The notes under the pieces are model-generated. The model searched no databases. It worked only from the letters and a program-made list of their open reading frames with translations, and was not told where the DNA came from. Shown here in pieces: positions 1 to 5,510 of a stretch of 36,835 nt of DNA. This DNA comes from a virus. The stretch is taken from IMG/VR virus record IMGVR_UViG_3300020162_002824, positions 1-36,835 of that record; one strand, given 5' to 3'. Positions within the stretch are counted from its first letter, which is position 1, and each line of letters opens with the position of its first letter. The translations under genes were made by a program, and so were the position numbers.

Positions 1-989
1 ATTTTTTTTAATTTATCTTCTTCTTCATTTCTTTTATCAATATAAGCTTGCATCTGTTTTTTAAATTCCTCGCTGATGTGAATTGTAACGTCTTTGCCGC
101 CGCCTTTATTATCGACTTTTTTCTTTCTCGCCGCACCTTTTAACTGAAGAAGCGTTTGCATTTGAATACTTCCTGTTTTAAAAGCTAAATCTAATGGCGC
201 GATTTCTCCTTTGAAGTCTGCTCCGTTAACGTTAGCGCCTAAACATATCAAAAACTCGACCATTTCTATGTCGTTAGCGTTAACGGCGTAGTGAATCGGC
301 ATCCATCCGTTCTTTTCATCTCTACCGTTTATGCGTCCATCAATGTCAAAATATTTTTGAACTCCTTCGAAATCTCCGGTTTCAGAACAAAAATGAATGT
401 TTGAACCGCCTGAAGATTTTGCGCCAGATTTAATTAGTATTCTTACTATTTCACCTCTGTTGCCTAAAGCTAATACATCTATAGGATTTGACTTACCTAA
501 AAAGTCTTTAGCGTTAACATCTGCTCCTCTTAATATTAAATATTCTACAAGATGTTTTTGTCCGTAGTGAGCTGCGTAATGTAGAGCAGTCCAACCTTTT
601 GCGGCATCAACTTCGTTTAAAGTGTGTCCTTTATTTAGCATTTCCTCTACGGAAACTATGTCTCCATTTTTAGCCGCTAAATGAAAGCTGCTGCCACTGC
701 CATATTTCGCGCCTCTCTTTTGCAGCGTTTCAACAATTGATAAAAACCCTTTTTGCTCGGCAATATCTAACGCTGTATTTTTACTTGTCCAATCCATTAA
801 ATTAATATCAGAACCATGATTTAATAATAATTCGACAATTTCTTTATTATTTTCTAAAACAGCAACAATAAGAGGAGGATTTCCCGTGTCTTCATCTCTT
901 TCATTTACATTAACTTTATCTTTAACTATACAATTGTAGACATTGTCGTATAAATTACGGCGGATATTGGTAAAAATATTTATTGCCAT
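1..989 (-). CDS. Ankyrin-repeat protein (C-terminus cut by window edge)
   Basis: At least 329 residues are visible with no stop before the window edge. The sequence shows several ankyrin-type repeats of about 33 residues, with motifs such as GWTALHYAAHYGQKHLVEYL, LLLNHGSDIN and LILRGADVNAKD, so it should be a protein-binding solenoid. The repeats occupy most of the visible part. A charged stretch (AARKKKVDNKGGGKDV) and a Lys/Glu-rich helical tail follow near the edge. I see no signal peptide, so it is probably cytoplasmic. The start codon follows directly on the stop codon of the holin-like gene (TAAATG), so the two are translationally coupled. The partner is unknown. The repeat assignment is firm; any role in host takeover is inference. 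Confidence 0.9.
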   Translation of the reverse strand, partial: MAINIFTNIRRNLYDNVYNCIVKDKVNVNERDEDTGNPPLIVAVLENNKEIVELLLNHGSDINLMDWTSKNTALDIAEQKGFLSIVETLQKRGAKYGSGSSFHLAAKNGDIVSVEEMLNKGHTLNEVDAAKGWTALHYAAHYGQKHLVEYLILRGADVNAKDFLGKSNPIDVLALGNRGEIVRILIKSGAKSSGGSNIHFCSETGDFEGVQKYFDIDGRINGRDEKNGWMPIHYAVNANDIEMVEFLICLGANVNGADFKGEIAPLDLAFKTGSIQMQTLLQLKGAARKKKVDNKGGGKDVTIHISEEFKKQMQAYIDKRNEEEDKLKK

Positions 990-1313
990 TTATCGTTTTT
1001 TTCTTTTAGTTGTTTTTTTTGGTTTTGTTTTATTACTTATCTTTTCTAAGAATTTTTCACTAACTATTTCTACTAATTTTAATCCTAAAAATCCTGCTAT
1101 AAAAGCTATACCATTTTGATGTTTAACGTTTGTTATATTTAACGTATCGACTAGAACGGGGGTAAGAAAGTTTGCGGCTGATATACCACCAATTAAAGAT
1201 AAAAATACAGACTTAACGTCTGTTTTTTCGTTTTTGGTAGCCATTAATATAGCTCCAAATAGTCCGCTGATTAAAAAACCAATTTGAATTCCCATTTTTT
1301 GAAGATAGTCCAT
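990..1313 (-). CDS. Putative holin (LydA / holin superfamily III-like)
   Basis: A 107-residue membrane protein. I see three hydrophobic segments (about residues 10-25, 36-58 and 67-84) and a strongly basic C-terminal tail (KKTTKRKKR). Small size, multiple membrane helices, glycines in the helices (GFLISGLFGA, IAGFLGLKLVE) and a charged tail fit phage holins, and the pattern resembles the LydA-type superfamily III. Holins form inner-membrane lesions that start lysis. Its neighbours are other small membrane proteins and a spanin-like lipoprotein, which supports a lysis function. No endolysin is recognisable in the window, so the assignment rests on architecture and context. It could instead be an unrelated small membrane protein. 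Confidence 0.5.
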   Translation of the reverse strand: MDYLQKMGIQIGFLISGLFGAILMATKNEKTDVKSVFLSLIGGISAANFLTPVLVDTLNITNVKHQNGIAFIAGFLGLKLVEIVSEKFLEKISNKTKPKKTTKRKKR

Positions 1314-1316
1314 AAA

Positions 1317-1934
1317 TTATTTCTTTTTCTTTTTTATGGTTTTCTTTTTAATGGGTTGGTTATCGCATTTAATTAAATAAACTAATAAAATAATAATTAA
1401 GCACAATATATATAGATATATATTTAGCGATTTAATTTCGTCTTTAACTATCTTTTCAGAGCTGTCATTAATTAAAATTCTAAAATTATTAATGTTGTCG
1501 TATATCTTTCTCTTGTAGTCTAAGTATTTGTCTCCGAAGAAGGCTTTGTTTTCCATCTTTTCAAACGCAGCGTTCTCTACGTCTTTGGCTAAATCATTAC
1601 TTATATCAAGACCTTTGCGGAATTCTTTTAATTCTTCTTTAGTTAATAGTTTACTTATAAATATTTCTTCGTTAAAGTATTTTTCCCGTTCTTTTAAATG
1701 ATTGTTAAATTGATCTAAGAATTTTTTATCAGATGTTGTTGTGTAAGCCGCGCCTAGATAAGTTAATAAATCTGTTGATTTTCTTAAATATAAAGTTATA
1801 TCTCTGCCAAATCTAAATCTGACATATGCTTGTTCTATATCTTTTAAACTAGAAATAGATAAAATAACTAATATAACAGTAGGTAAAAGTGCAAAAAATA
1901 AGTATTTCTTTATATTCGAAATAATATTATTCAT
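1317..1934 (-). CDS. Membrane-anchored four-helix-bundle sensor-like protein
   Basis: A 205-residue protein with a membrane helix near the N-terminus (about residues 11-29), a helical middle domain, a second membrane helix (about 172-189) and a Lys-rich tail (KKKTIKKKKK). This is the topology of a chemoreceptor periplasmic domain. The middle resembles the four-helix-bundle ligand-binding domains of methyl-accepting chemotaxis proteins: STDLLTYLGAAYTTTSDKKF, then EREKYF, LTKEELKEF, SNDLAKDVE and FGDKYLDYKRKI match the usual order of that family. There is no HAMP or signalling domain. Its start overlaps the end of the MscS-like gene by 8 bases, and the holin-like gene follows. A role in sensing the periplasm or in timing lysis (antiholin-like) is inference only. 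Confidence 0.55.
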   Translation of the reverse strand: MNNIISNIKKYLFFALLPTVILVILSISSLKDIEQAYVRFRFGRDITLYLRKSTDLLTYLGAAYTTTSDKKFLDQFNNHLKEREKYFNEEIFISKLLTKEELKEFRKGLDISNDLAKDVENAAFEKMENKAFFGDKYLDYKRKIYDNINNFRILINDSSEKIVKDEIKSLNIYLYILCLIIILLVYLIKCDNQPIKKKTIKKKKK

Positions 1935-2298
1935 TTTTCTTAAATCTGCTTAAATCTAAGTTAGCAAGAGGTTTTTCAATATTTAAACTGGCTAACCTTT
2001 CGTTTTGAACAACTAATTTACTGCCGCCAACTACTTTTCCGTCTACAATGTCATATATAAAAAATACAGTTTTAGTTAATCCAACTCTGACTATTCTTCC
2101 CGGCTTTCCATCAACATAAACTACGTCATCTTCTTTATAATCCGAACCAACAAACATAAATAAAGCTGCCGCTAGCTTTTCTATACTTGATTTAAACATT
2201 AAAGCTATAAGACCAACAATAAACAGCCAAACATATTTACCAGTTAGATCTTGGCCCGTTGCTTCTAAAACTTGTTGATGTATTATATTTGTATCCAT
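1927..2298 (-). CDS. Small MscS beta-domain-like membrane protein
   Basis: A 123-residue protein with one clear hydrophobic helix (about residues 22-46), followed by a beta-rich segment resembling the middle domain of MscS mechanosensitive channels. The key stretch is LAAALFMFVGSDYKEDDVVY followed by VDGKPGRIVRVGLTKTVFF and then KLVVQNERLASLNI. These match the family pattern of pore helix, 'VGD.V.vdG..G.V..IgL..T' and 'vPNs.L'. A full MscS has about 280 residues and three membrane helices, so this is a minimal version with only the pore-proximal helix and the beta domain. It lies between the sensor-like and spanin-like genes, separated from the latter by a single base. Whether it forms a channel is unknown. 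Confidence 0.55.
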   Translation of the reverse strand: MDTNIIHQQVLEATGQDLTGKYVWLFIVGLIALMFKSSIEKLAAALFMFVGSDYKEDDVVYVDGKPGRIVRVGLTKTVFFIYDIVDGKVVGGSKLVVQNERLASLNIEKPLANLDLSRFKKNE

Positions 2299-2299
2299 A

Positions 2300-3259
2300 T
2301 TATTTTGTCCACTTTTGTTCTTTTAATATTTCGTTTATTAAATCTTTTTCATGACTGTCCATTTCTTTATCGAAACGTTTTAATACTTCGGTTAATGGAT
2401 ATATTCTATCTGGAGATTCTTTTTGTTTTTCTTTAAGTTCTTGAATTACATCTATAATTTTAACAAGAGGAGATTTAAATTCATCGACTTTATCTTTTGT
2501 AGCAAAATTACTCATTTCAAAAGCTTTGGGAGTTAAAGCTTTTATAACAGAAATAACAGCCGATCCTAACATGTTGAAAATAGAGAAAGCTGCTCCAGCA
2601 GCAGGATGTACGGTTGCGAGAAGTCTGAGAAGAACGAATATTACTACAAATACAACTATTGCAGTTAACGCGCTAATAATAAACTTCTTTAATCCCCAGA
2701 ATACAGCATTAAGACCAAACATGCCGCTCATTGAATCTAATACAGCTTTGTTTTGATCCGCTTCTTTAGCGACCTCTTTAGCTTTGTCTGTTAATTGCCA
2801 AAGTTGATCGTCATATTTTTCATTTAATTCTGATTTTTCTTTTTGGAGTTTATTAATTATTTCGTCGCGTTGAGATAATAACTCTTCTCCTTTTTTACGT
2901 TCTTCGGCTACTTGAGAATTTAATAAATCAACAGTTGCTTTAATACGCTTAATTTCGTCAATATGAGGAGACCCAACAATAGAAATAACTCTTTCGTTAA
3001 GAGCTTTAGCCGTATCTACTTGAACAGGTGGATTTGATACTTGATTTAAAGAATGTTGAATACCGATTGAAAGACCAGACGTTTGAATCTTCTTGCCTTT
3101 ATCGTTTTTTTCTATTTCTACTAAAGTTGTGTCTACTTTTTTCTCTTCTTTAGCTATGGCTTTTTGATTGTCGTCTATTTGTTTCGCTGGTTTGATTGTA
3201 GACAAACATCCAGTTAATAAAAATAAACTTATAATAGCAAATGATTTATTTACGTTCAT
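2300..3259 (-). CDS. Spanin-like lipoprotein with coiled coil and membrane segment
   Basis: A 319-residue protein. The N-terminus is a lipoprotein signal with lipobox LLTGC (Cys18 would be lipidated). Residues about 100-170 are charged and heptad-like, suggesting a coiled coil. Residues 193-215 are a strong membrane helix and 219-243 are a second hydrophobic or amphipathic segment. About 75 hydrophilic residues follow. An outer-membrane lipid anchor, a periplasmic rod and an inner-membrane helix in one chain is the layout of unimolecular spanins, which disrupt the outer membrane in the last step of lysis. The long C-terminal extension is unusual for a spanin. It is the first gene of the membrane cluster and lies just downstream of a TATAAAT element. 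It could also be a structural lipoprotein unrelated to lysis. Confidence 0.45.
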   Translation of the reverse strand: MNVNKSFAIISLFLLTGCLSTIKPAKQIDDNQKAIAKEEKKVDTTLVEIEKNDKGKKIQTSGLSIGIQHSLNQVSNPPVQVDTAKALNERVISIVGSPHIDEIKRIKATVDLLNSQVAEERKKGEELLSQRDEIINKLQKEKSELNEKYDDQLWQLTDKAKEVAKEADQNKAVLDSMSGMFGLNAVFWGLKKFIISALTAIVVFVVIFVLLRLLATVHPAAGAAFSIFNMLGSAVISVIKALTPKAFEMSNFATKDKVDEFKSPLVKIIDVIQELKEKQKESPDRIYPLTEVLKRFDKEMDSHEKDLINEILKEQKWTK

Positions 3260-3266: not shown

Positions 3267-3320
3267 TTTACACTTATAAGAGATAAATAGAACTATCCAT
3301 TCTTGGGGATATTTTTACAT

Positions 3321-3342
3321 AAAAAAACCGCCTTTCGGCGGG
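3321..3342 (-). terminator. Rho-independent terminator after the tail-collar gene
   Basis: On the minus strand a GC-only 5-bp stem (CCGCC/GGCGG on the plus strand) closes a GAAA tetraloop and is followed by seven Ts. It lies 10 bases past the stop of the tail-collar gene and about 60 bases before the next minus-strand gene. It therefore separates the tail-collar/cytochrome unit from the membrane/lysis-like unit. Confidence 0.85.
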
Positions 3343-3351
3343 TGAGTTTAA

Positions 3352-3603
3352 TTAGTCTTGTCTTGCAGGGAATATCCCTTGCGTACAGATTATGTATTTT
3401 AAATCAGTTCCTTGACAAAAAGATACTGTATTTAAATTGGGCAAGTTAAAAACTACCCTTCCATCTCCTCCGTATTGAGTTCCGAGGATGGCGTATAGTG
3501 CGTTGTATTGGCTAATTTGTAAAGATTGACCATTGCAGTACATATAGTTTTGAGGACAATATGTCCCTGCGAATAATTTAATAACTCCTAGATATTCTTC
3601 CAT
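3352..3603 (-). CDS. Minimal phage tail collar domain protein
   Basis: An 83-residue protein matching the phage tail collar family (microcystin-dependent MdpB-like proteins). It starts LGVIKLFAGTYCPQNYMYCN, followed by GQSLQISQYNALYAILGTQY and GGDGRVVFNLPNL. Conserved features seen are the F-A-G-x-x-x-P start, C-x-G-Q and the YGGDG...F-x-L-P-x-L strand. Family members are usually around 170 residues or are the tip of longer tail fibres. Here only the collar domain remains and the chain ends soon after it, so it is either a stand-alone adhesin or tip module, or a remnant. A terminator follows. It probably acts in the virion at the baseplate or fibre tip. Confidence 0.85.
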   Translation of the reverse strand: MEEYLGVIKLFAGTYCPQNYMYCNGQSLQISQYNALYAILGTQYGGDGRVVFNLPNLNTVSFCQGTDLKYIICTQGIFPARQD

Positions 3604-3612
3604 AATATTTTA

Positions 3613-4155
3613 TTACACTTTTTTATAAAGATTACTGGCTTTCCCTCGTTTATTTTTTCTATCACCATTTAACCTGATCTCTCTATTTGATATTAATAAC
3701 TTAATTTTTTGATAAGCTATAGAATAATTAAGTTTTGGATTAGCTTTAATGAATTCTTTAATAGTAAAATCTATCGTCGGAATTCTCACTTCTTCGTTTT
3801 TGATTTCTTCTTCTACTTCTTTTTTTTCTCCAGCCTTAACGATTTCTTCGTACCGATTTTCAGCCGCCTCTAATGAAATACAGTCAAAACCAAGTTTCCC
3901 AAAAGCGTTATCAGTTGGATAAAGCCATTTAGCTTCAATTTTCTTATCGTTAAATACGTAAGCTTCTTGTTGTCGTAATTTTACAAGCTCATATTTTTTA
4001 TGAGTATGCTTGTTTCTTGTTTTTACTCCAACATCTTCTTTTTTAATTTTCTCGTAAATGCACCAGCTATTTTTTAGCTGTTTTACAAATTTGAACCTAT
4101 ATCCACGAAGAGTGAATTCTTTTTCAACTAAAATATATCCGTCTTTGTCTTTCAT
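3613..4155 (-). CDS. Hypothetical protein with winged-helix-like C-terminus
   Basis: A 180-residue soluble, basic protein of unknown family. The N-terminal half is beta-rich and aromatic (EFTLRGYRFKFVKQLKNSWC, then YVFNDKKIEAKWLYP). A Glu/Lys-rich linker (about residues 110-122) leads to a C-terminal segment of about 55 residues, TIKEFIKANPKLNYSIAYQK followed by ISNREIRLNGDRKNKRGKAS, which looks like a small helix-turn-helix or winged-helix module ending in basic residues. A nucleic-acid-binding role is only suggested. Its ATG overlaps the TGA of the upstream cytochrome-like gene. Confidence 0.7.
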   Translation of the reverse strand: MKDKDGYILVEKEFTLRGYRFKFVKQLKNSWCIYEKIKKEDVGVKTRNKHTHKKYELVKLRQQEAYVFNDKKIEAKWLYPTDNAFGKLGFDCISLEAAENRYEEIVKAGEKKEVEEEIKNEEVRIPTIDFTIKEFIKANPKLNYSIAYQKIKLLISNREIRLNGDRKNKRGKASNLYKKV

Positions 4156-5510
4156 TTGTTTCTTCGGTCTACTGGGTAAACCTTGCCTTCTTTAAGATTA
4201 ACGCTTCCATCTTGGAGTTCAAGAAAATTATTAACAGATTTTACATAATCGCTTTGGAAAAGTCCTCCTTGTGCGCCCTTCCAGTTTACAAAGTTCTCAA
4301 GAGCTTCTGACATTTGAAGGCAAAAGTCTGTTGAATAATATTTTTGACTTGGAGTTGATTTGTCGAATGACACGGCGCATTTTTCGTTTCTAAACCAAAG
4401 CATCCAACCGTCACTGCCGGGAGGGTACTTATTAGAAAGAGTTGAATCAAATAATGGACTCAATGGAGATCCTTGAGGGTATTCTGCGGTGGAGTGGCAG
4501 CTATAACAAGAACTCATCGAGTTATCAAGAGGTCCATTTAACCGACCATTCCATCCAAGATGAGTAGGAGGAAGCTCATTGGCATCGGGATTAATAATAG
4601 TTTCTTTTAAAGATGCGTTAATAATAGTGTTTGTGGGATATGGGTTGGAAAAATCTACATTGTTTGTTGGATCTTGGCCCCACATCAAACCTACTGGAAC
4701 TAGATTATTCCATTTAATAGGACTATTTGCCGCGCCATTATATTGAAAATTACCAAATACCCATCCATTTGGAGAGTTTTCGTCGCGAACCATAATGTCC
4801 ATTTGAGTCAATACAACTTGAATTTTGGATCGATCTGAACTGTTAAAGTTATAAGTAGCGTAAGCGTCCCACCATAAACCGTTGCGAAAGAATGGAACTG
4901 TAGATTCAGCTACGTCTTTTGGAATAGAAGTAAATAGAAGCTTGAATAATACTGCGCCATGCTTAAAGCCACCTTTCATAAGTGCAGGATCTGGATTGTT
5001 GTGATCAGCCCAAACTTGGCCGATTGTATAACCAGCGACATCGTTAAAGAAGCCTACTGCCCATGCGCCAGAAGTGGCGTATTGTTGAGAAATAGCGAGT
5101 TGATGCGCCTTAACTGGCGCTTCCTTGGTTAAACCGTGAAACCCTTCTCGACCATTTGCAGAGTAATGCTGGAAAGGCATGTGATACCAATTTCGCAAAT
5201 TATTATTCTCAACTCGAAAATCTACATTTGTATTTCCCTCAAAACAGTAATCGCGAACAGAAATAAGATATTCGCGCCAATTTGTTTTATAATTTATGCT
5301 ATAAAATTTAGGAAGACTGTTTTTAGGAAGAGTTTGTGGATAATCTTGCCTTAGTTTAAATACCTCGTTCGCGTTTGTAACATCACTCGCGGGAACCATA
5401 TATCCAAAATCTGGAAATGGCTTTTGGGGCTTAATTTGATTTTTAACTTTTACGCTTATTGCGGTAAAGGCGACAAGAACACAAATAAAAATAACTGAAG
5501 CAGTTTTCAT
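4152..5510 (-). CDS. Exported protein with one c-type heme motif
   Basis: A 452-residue protein with an N-terminal hydrophobic signal (about residues 4-20, TASVIFICVLVAFTAISV) and no later membrane helix, so it is predicted to be exported. Residues 335-339 are C-Y-S-C-H, the CXXCH signature for covalent heme c attachment, in a context (GWNGRLNGPLDNSMSSCYSC, then HSTAEYP) resembling bacterial cytochrome c-like proteins of unknown function. Most of the chain is a large aromatic-rich domain (for example RNGLWWDAYATYNF and VGLMWGQDP) that I do not recognise. Cys89, Cys378 and Cys397 could form disulfides. A heme protein is unexpected in a phage. Maturation would need the host heme-lyase system, and its function is unknown. 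Confidence 0.65.
   Translation of the reverse strand: MKTASVIFICVLVAFTAISVKVKNQIKPQKPFPDFGYMVPASDVTNANEVFKLRQDYPQTLPKNSLPKFYSINYKTNWREYLISVRDYCFEGNTNVDFRVENNNLRNWYHMPFQHYSANGREGFHGLTKEAPVKAHQLAISQQYATSGAWAVGFFNDVAGYTIGQVWADHNNPDPALMKGGFKHGAVLFKLLFTSIPKDVAESTVPFFRNGLWWDAYATYNFNSSDRSKIQVVLTQMDIMVRDENSPNGWVFGNFQYNGAANSPIKWNNLVPVGLMWGQDPTNNVDFSNPYPTNTIINASLKETIINPDANELPPTHLGWNGRLNGPLDNSMSSCYSCHSTAEYPQGSPLSPLFDSTLSNKYPPGSDGWMLWFRNEKCAVSFDKSTPSQKYYSTDFCLQMSEALENFVNWKGAQGGLFQSDYVKSVNNFLELQDGSVNLKEGKVYPVDRRNK

Follow-up and report, generated by a model that had tools for sequence, protein, structure and literature searches.

What does a phage gain from four near-abutting genes for membrane proteins, and do these genes act together in a regulated lysis of the host? 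The window (the whole stretch of DNA that was analyzed) is a linear virus fragment of 36,835 bases, AT-rich with a GC content of 33%. RecA-, DnaB-, and DnaE-like proteins, named by reading translations, are encoded in it, and the DnaE-like gene was 26%–28% identical to phage DNA polymerase III alpha genes with 90%–94% of the length covered. The source of the window is probably a large uncultured freshwater phage with a Gram-negative host. Also encoded in the window, at 4152–5510, is a 452-aa protein that looks secreted and has a weak Cytochrome_P460 match and a haem-binding-like CYSCH motif, which is unusual in a phage.

All genes of the locus lie on the minus strand, and the four membrane genes are complete ORFs. 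In the order of transcription, these are lip (2300–3259; 319 aa), a spanin-like lipoprotein candidate with an LTGC lipobox and a central transmembrane (TM) segment; mini-MscS (1927–2298; 123 aa), with one pore-type TM helix and an MscS beta domain; sen (1317–1934; 205 aa), a sensor-like protein with two TM segments and the proposed regulator of the holin; and hol (990–1313; 107 aa), a protein of holin family phrog_2359 with three TM segments. A 1-nt gap separates lip from mini-MscS, mini-MscS and sen overlap by 8 nt, and sen and hol are 3 nt apart. Just upstream of the locus, a hairpin resembling an intrinsic terminator (CCGCCGAAAGGCGG-T7; 3328–3341, minus strand) stands between lip and its upstream neighbor, a gene for a small tail-collar-domain protein (3352–3603, minus strand) that belongs to the context and is not a lysis gene. 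The first-pass annotation had described four nearly abutting one-strand genes behind a terminator, and its coordinates were exact. The run does not end with these four, however: it continues past hol into an ankyrin gene (3–989, minus strand), which begins directly after hol (0 nt) at the left end of the window and is cut by the contig end. Compared with their relatives, all four genes showed pN/pS values of 0.09–0.25, and since they are thus under purifying selection, they are real genes. No endolysin was seen across the 36.8-kb window, as had been noted for the surroundings of the locus.

The holin label of hol held up with a match to phrog_2359 (2.5e-12), which was also found with distant relatives of hol (5.8e-13 and 9.2e-14); three other lysis families were matched by hol more weakly. 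Its hydrophobic segments are at residues 7–25, 36–54, and 67–85, followed by a basic, K/R-rich C-terminal tail. In size, three TM segments, basic tail, and PHROG match, hol therefore resembles phrog_2359 and lambda-S-like class I holins. It differs from these in that a sensor-type partner gene lies alongside in every contig found. The predicted role of hol is a timed permeabilization of the inner membrane.

A profile search for sen yielded 17 contigs, and together with the window, hol was directly beside sen in 18 of 18. Nine of these contigs are of freshwater origin, with sen 70%–85% identical to that of the window, and eight are distant (42%–47%); a distant hol and sen were 41% and 47% identical, respectively, to the window proteins. 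In six of the eight distant contigs, the gene order was hol, sen, a small gene with two TM segments, and an M15 endolysin (M15 peptidase, phrog_894, 4.4e-37), and in the other two, hol and sen were followed by a GH19 endolysin (phrog_181, 6.4e-64; endolysins in the PDB, 5e-32). An M15 or GH19 endolysin was thus located within 0.2–1.6 kb of hol-sen in the distant, unrelated phages. In the freshwater contigs L008, L009, and L314, hol was followed by a coiled-coil/TM protein weakly matching XhlA and, at a distance of 3–4 kb, by a GH24-like lysozyme that narrowly missed the Pfam cut-off. Most freshwater relatives were devoid of sen-hol, and no other holin was recognized there. Because hol and sen are always adjacent, even in unrelated phages with an M15 or GH19 endolysin nearby, gene order indicates that they are a lysis-cassette pair, and this linkage is the strongest evidence on the two genes.

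An Ala/Gly-rich repeat protein of ~310–335 aa without a family match adjoins sen-hol in unrelated phages (L008:10947–11951, L064:10917–11840, and L355:5614–6558). In L355, it lies between hol-sen and the GH19 endolysin, adjoining the latter as well. This protein is possibly a further component of the lysis cassette.

No significant family match was obtained for sen, and searches of the PDB with sequence profiles of sen and mini-MscS gave no match; both proteins were therefore compared by fold. The predicted topology of sen is a TM1 with the N terminus inside, an extracytoplasmic four-helix bundle of ~140 aa, a TM2, and a lysine-rich tail. The AlphaFold (AF2) model (pLDDT 78.6) displayed the same TM-four-helix bundle-TM arrangement and aligned over its full length with the sensor and TM parts of NarQ (Z 12.7, 182 residues). 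The sensors LytS, PilJ, and MCP also aligned at Z of about 13, which for helical bundles is no more than suggestive, and the second match in BFVD was a 4HB_MCP-domain protein. Z-scores near 13 are common among helical bundles, and a four-helix bundle will align with many proteins to which it is unrelated; the modeled fold thus supports, without proving, the identity of sen as a sensor, and the sensor-like label given to 1317–1934 stands at this level. The predicted TM1-bundle-TM2 plan is that of NarQ/MCP-type sensors over the full length, whereas the HAMP, kinase, or methyl-accepting output domains of such sensors are missing. Recombination of the sensor domain between L008 and L313 was considered and rejected, as identity was patchy with no clear breakpoint.

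From its constant pairing with hol, its topology, and the precedent of RI and T in phage T4 (PMC8385771), we infer that sen regulates hol. Most likely, sen would be a sensor-type antiholin (or co-holin) that binds hol and brings its triggering forward or holds it back in response to an external ligand or the state of the envelope. In T4, RI does the same for the holin T as a periplasmic antiholin in lysis inhibition (PMC8385771). The likeness is one of function, namely, a holin and a dedicated partner with an extracytoplasmic signal-receiving domain (PMC8385771); structurally, hol has three TM segments and lacks a large periplasmic domain, and the sensing domain of sen, unlike RI, is a four-helix bundle between two TMs. 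That sen truly senses a signal and gates hol is a tentative proposal, which we rate somewhat below even. For the locus as a whole, the best explanation is a modular, probably late lysis locus of the phage with sen as a sensor-type regulator of the holin, and we assign this reading a probability of ~0.62. Points that weigh against it are the lack of an endolysin in the window, the 108 residues behind the TM of lip, and the many freshwater relatives without sen-hol or another recognized holin.

We examined lip as the candidate link to the outer membrane. The Cys of the lipobox is followed by Leu, not Asp, and is the sole cysteine of the protein; these features fit an outer-membrane lipoprotein. 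A periplasmic segment (residues ~18–190) precedes a strong TM at 193–211, a second hydrophobic stretch lies at 221–239, and 108 residues follow the TM, including a conserved C-terminal tail of ~80 aa. Unimolecular spanins combine a lipobox and an inner-membrane TM without periplasmic Cys, and those described end in the TM (PMC6139136). As in T1 gp11, lip carries the outer-membrane lipoprotein signal, is predicted to reach both membranes, and has no periplasmic cysteine. Its TM is central in the 319 residues, however, whereas that of the described u-spanins is C-terminal; lip was therefore filed as spanin-like only. The corresponding label of the first-pass annotation holds in part, given the central position of the TM. 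Anchored in the outer membrane as a lipoprotein and reaching into the inner membrane as well, lip would most likely bridge the two in the manner of a unimolecular spanin.

All 19 of the freshwater contigs tested carry lip, which is thus a core lipoprotein of the freshwater phages; both marine contigs lack it. Searches for an endolysin with the GH24 profile on the large contigs gave nothing above the cut-off, and the SLT and M15_4 profiles gave nothing; the Hydrolase_2 profile matched beside lip. There, in G010, G019, and G020, a cell-wall hydrolase is encoded two small genes upstream of lip (PF07486 above cut-off; phrog_938 endolysin, 1.2e-10), and in L069, the same position is occupied by a protein whose C terminus resembles the marine GH24 lysozyme. 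For the contig G001, the only endolysin candidate was a weak Destabilase-like match. In addition, lip and sen-hol lay near each other in the window and six further contigs; in G019 and G020, the two are about 18 kb apart. These endolysin or holin neighbors make a role of lip in lysis likely. Two proteins whose genes occupy the same place upstream of lip (L065:7384–9084 and L069:6687–8744) have similar N-terminal parts with a Hydrolase_2 versus a GH24-like C-terminal domain, which, from their sequences, is endolysin domain swapping. A small secreted EF-hand protein was also observed near lip or sen-hol (L003:9632–9916, L064:9233–9493, and L315:6357–6698).

The first-pass annotation had proposed that the four genes form one module, possibly for regulated lysis, and had set their co-occurrence in related phages as a test. 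Among the other related contigs read, only L003 carried all four genes together; the quartet is not conserved, whereas the sen-hol pair is. One conserved four-gene system was thus ruled out, as pairs and singles move separately. Regulated lysis drew support from hol-sen beside endolysins in unrelated phages and from the neighbors of lip; the idea of a single module did not survive. The slot behind lip held mini-MscS with the ankyrin-cyclase in most contigs, sen-hol with the XhlA-like gene in others, and both sets in the window and L003. Its other contents were a TM-anchored PAS protein with an outer-membrane barrel, the XhlA-like gene alone, or a helicase-like gene. A TM-anchored PAS protein followed by an outer-membrane barrel was located behind lip or the cyclase at L001:13198–14535, L004:13222–14546, and L075:11073–12434, and such proteins are further sensor-like phage proteins in this slot. 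Judged by gene content, the quartet is a local combination of parts, of which hol-sen, lip, and mini-MscS with the ankyrin-cyclase are the conserved units.

We also inspected the sequences upstream of the genes. A putative late-promoter-like motif, AGTGTAAA (3267–3274, minus strand), lies 14 nt before the start of lip, and GTGTAAT (3612–3618) lies 15 nt before that of the tail-collar gene. In the 174-kb contig G001 (= L003), GTGTAA[A/T] was found 14–18 nt before 15 ORF starts (pieces L216–L225), and the genes bearing AGTGTAAT include lip, mini-MscS, the XhlA-like gene, and likely virion genes. GTGTAAT occurred at 29 sites in G001, of which 14 are next to ORF starts. In the related contig G002 (230 kb), hardly any copies of the motif were found. 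A late promoter of the T4 type, TATAAATA, was dismissed for G001, as it was not placed before genes, whereas AGTGTAAT was. No obvious Shine-Dalgarno sequence was seen at the G001 gene starts looked at. In G001, AGTGTAAT probably represents an unusual kind of late promoter; this count of motifs, as distinct from a mapped promoter, suggests that lip and mini-MscS are expressed late with virion genes. The genes described here would then supply the membrane proteins of a lysis locus that is modular and probably expressed late.

Judging from relatives, the ankyrin gene that follows hol encodes the repeats of a fusion of ankyrin and class III nucleotide cyclase, and the contig ends before the cyclase domain. 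In L001, L004, and L005, the ankyrin part was 92%–93% identical to that of the window (92% in L001), and the gene continued into the cyclase, which matched Guanylate_cyc in L001 and L003 (PF00211, 22.9–25.2 bits versus a cut-off of 21.9). The aligned relatives retain the metal-binding Asp pair and the transition-state Asn/Arg (FMDIV, TGDGM, and GIN.AQR), and the Lys/Asp pair that determines purine specificity is replaced by Leu/Asn. In class III cyclases, this Lys/Asp pair reads purines; its replacement is compatible with a non-adenylyl product. A 39% identical ankyrin-cyclase was found alone in an otherwise unrelated phage (L206:3146–4597). By sequence, such fusions make up a separate phage family, and because one also stands alone in L206, the ankyrin-cyclase need not belong to lysis.

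The cyclase raises the possibility of superinfection exclusion or abortive infection, in which a rival phage is sensed, the ankyrin-cyclase produces a cyclic nucleotide, and hol (as a YLATT-like protein), mini-MscS, and lip form an effector pore comparable to those of Pycsar or CBASS systems with TM effectors. The conserved catalytic residues with an altered substrate-defining pair would agree with this, as would a sub-threshold YLATT match of hol (3.4e-5) and a weak match of one lip homologue to the Cor exclusion lipoprotein family (0.0014). Pycsar, too, has a class III cyclase domain encoded close to membrane proteins. By contrast, the N-terminal ankyrin part sets the locus apart from Pycsar; padloc returned only ankyrin matches plus PycC at 0.055, with no significant match for the membrane proteins of the locus, and no cyclic-nucleotide-binding domain, as expected of such an effector, was recognized in any of the five genes. 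Moreover, hol-sen is found beside endolysins without the cyclase, and the cyclase without the membrane genes in L206. We therefore consider exclusion improbable as an account of the locus.

The MscS-like label of 1927–2298 was upheld. The window mini-MscS as a single sequence matched Pfam MscS weakly (PF00924, 13.4 bits, 0.089), and its marine relatives (63%–68% identity) reached 20.2 bits in L138, at the cut-off, and 19.3 bits in L137. The model was of low confidence (pLDDT 64), and its Foldseek matches were mostly of the MscS superfamily with MscS on top, including HpMscS, MSL10, and FLYC1 in the PDB; it aligned to MscS residues 87–185, which comprise the pore helix (TM3) and the beta domain. 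According to this model, mini-MscS is a minimal MscS, a channel reduced to pore helix and beta domain. It departs from canonical MscS in having one TM region, without TM1/TM2 or the C-terminal cage, and in being phage-encoded, beside holin and lysozyme genes in marine relatives. In the marine contigs read, mini-MscS and a Phage_holin_10 gene (9.8e-15 in L137) are arranged head to head; beyond the latter, L137 encodes a LysM-bearing GH24 lysozyme. Wherever a freshwater locus extends far enough, mini-MscS is followed by the ankyrin-cyclase, either directly or after sen-hol (window and L003). A scan of prokaryote genomes gave one match (57% identity) on a contig of the Pelagibacter MAG MED605 (L335), where the surrounding genes look phage-like; L335 is probably a phage contig in a Pelagibacter bin, a possible hint at a SAR11-type host for the marine relatives. 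No relevant literature on phage MscS or ankyrin-cyclases was found.

These features bear on another explanation, envelope homeostasis, in which mini-MscS, the sensor, and the lipoprotein (in relatives, the TM-PAS protein and outer-membrane barrel) adjust osmotic balance and the envelope of the infected cell during a long infection while lysis is handled elsewhere. The extreme conservation of the mini-MscS core speaks for it, as does the TM-PAS protein (PF13426, 1.3e-7) with the OMP-barrel protein in the same run of L001 and L004, but it leaves the holin family assignment and the constant linkage of hol-sen to endolysins unexplained, and its probability is low. Exclusion and envelope homeostasis are less likely as wholes than lysis; either may be correct for the cyclase or mini-MscS. 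That the genes are independent accessories without a common function in one slot behind the core gene lip, as the strongly varying content of the slot and the separate upstream motifs of lip, mini-MscS, and the XhlA-like gene in G001 might indicate, is very improbable given the operon-like packing in the window, the strict sen-hol pairing, and the recurrence of envelope and lysis genes in the slot.

We therefore return to the modular lysis locus, in which mini-MscS would be a small pore encoded next to the ankyrin-nucleotide cyclase, and the two may serve lysis timing or osmotic or signaling control of the infected cell. The pairing of hol with sen, beside an endolysin in the distant relatives, suggests, short of proof, that the phage monitors conditions beyond the inner membrane before it lyses the cell. 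A further-reaching version, which we hold to be doubtful, is that a chemoreceptor-type sensor of the phage, wired to the holin, times lysis by an extracellular or periplasmic cue and that, in the lineage of the window, the mini-MscS pore and a cyclase under ankyrin control, whose substrate pocket is unusual, complete a sensory lysis decision module. Very few phages are known to time lysis in response to outside signals, with T4 lysis inhibition as the classic case. In tblastn searches of 50,697 phage records, neither hol, lip, sen, mini-MscS, and the cyclase nor the distant sen and hol gave a match; no cultured phage among these records thus carries the genes. Two other phage-encoded proteins of note emerged with the locus: a minimal MscS and a fusion of ankyrin repeats to a nucleotide cyclase. 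The holin and its invariable partner, with a predicted chemoreceptor architecture, occur in several unrelated groups of uncultured phages and in none of the records searched; with them, it would become possible to test whether signal-responsive lysis is a general strategy.
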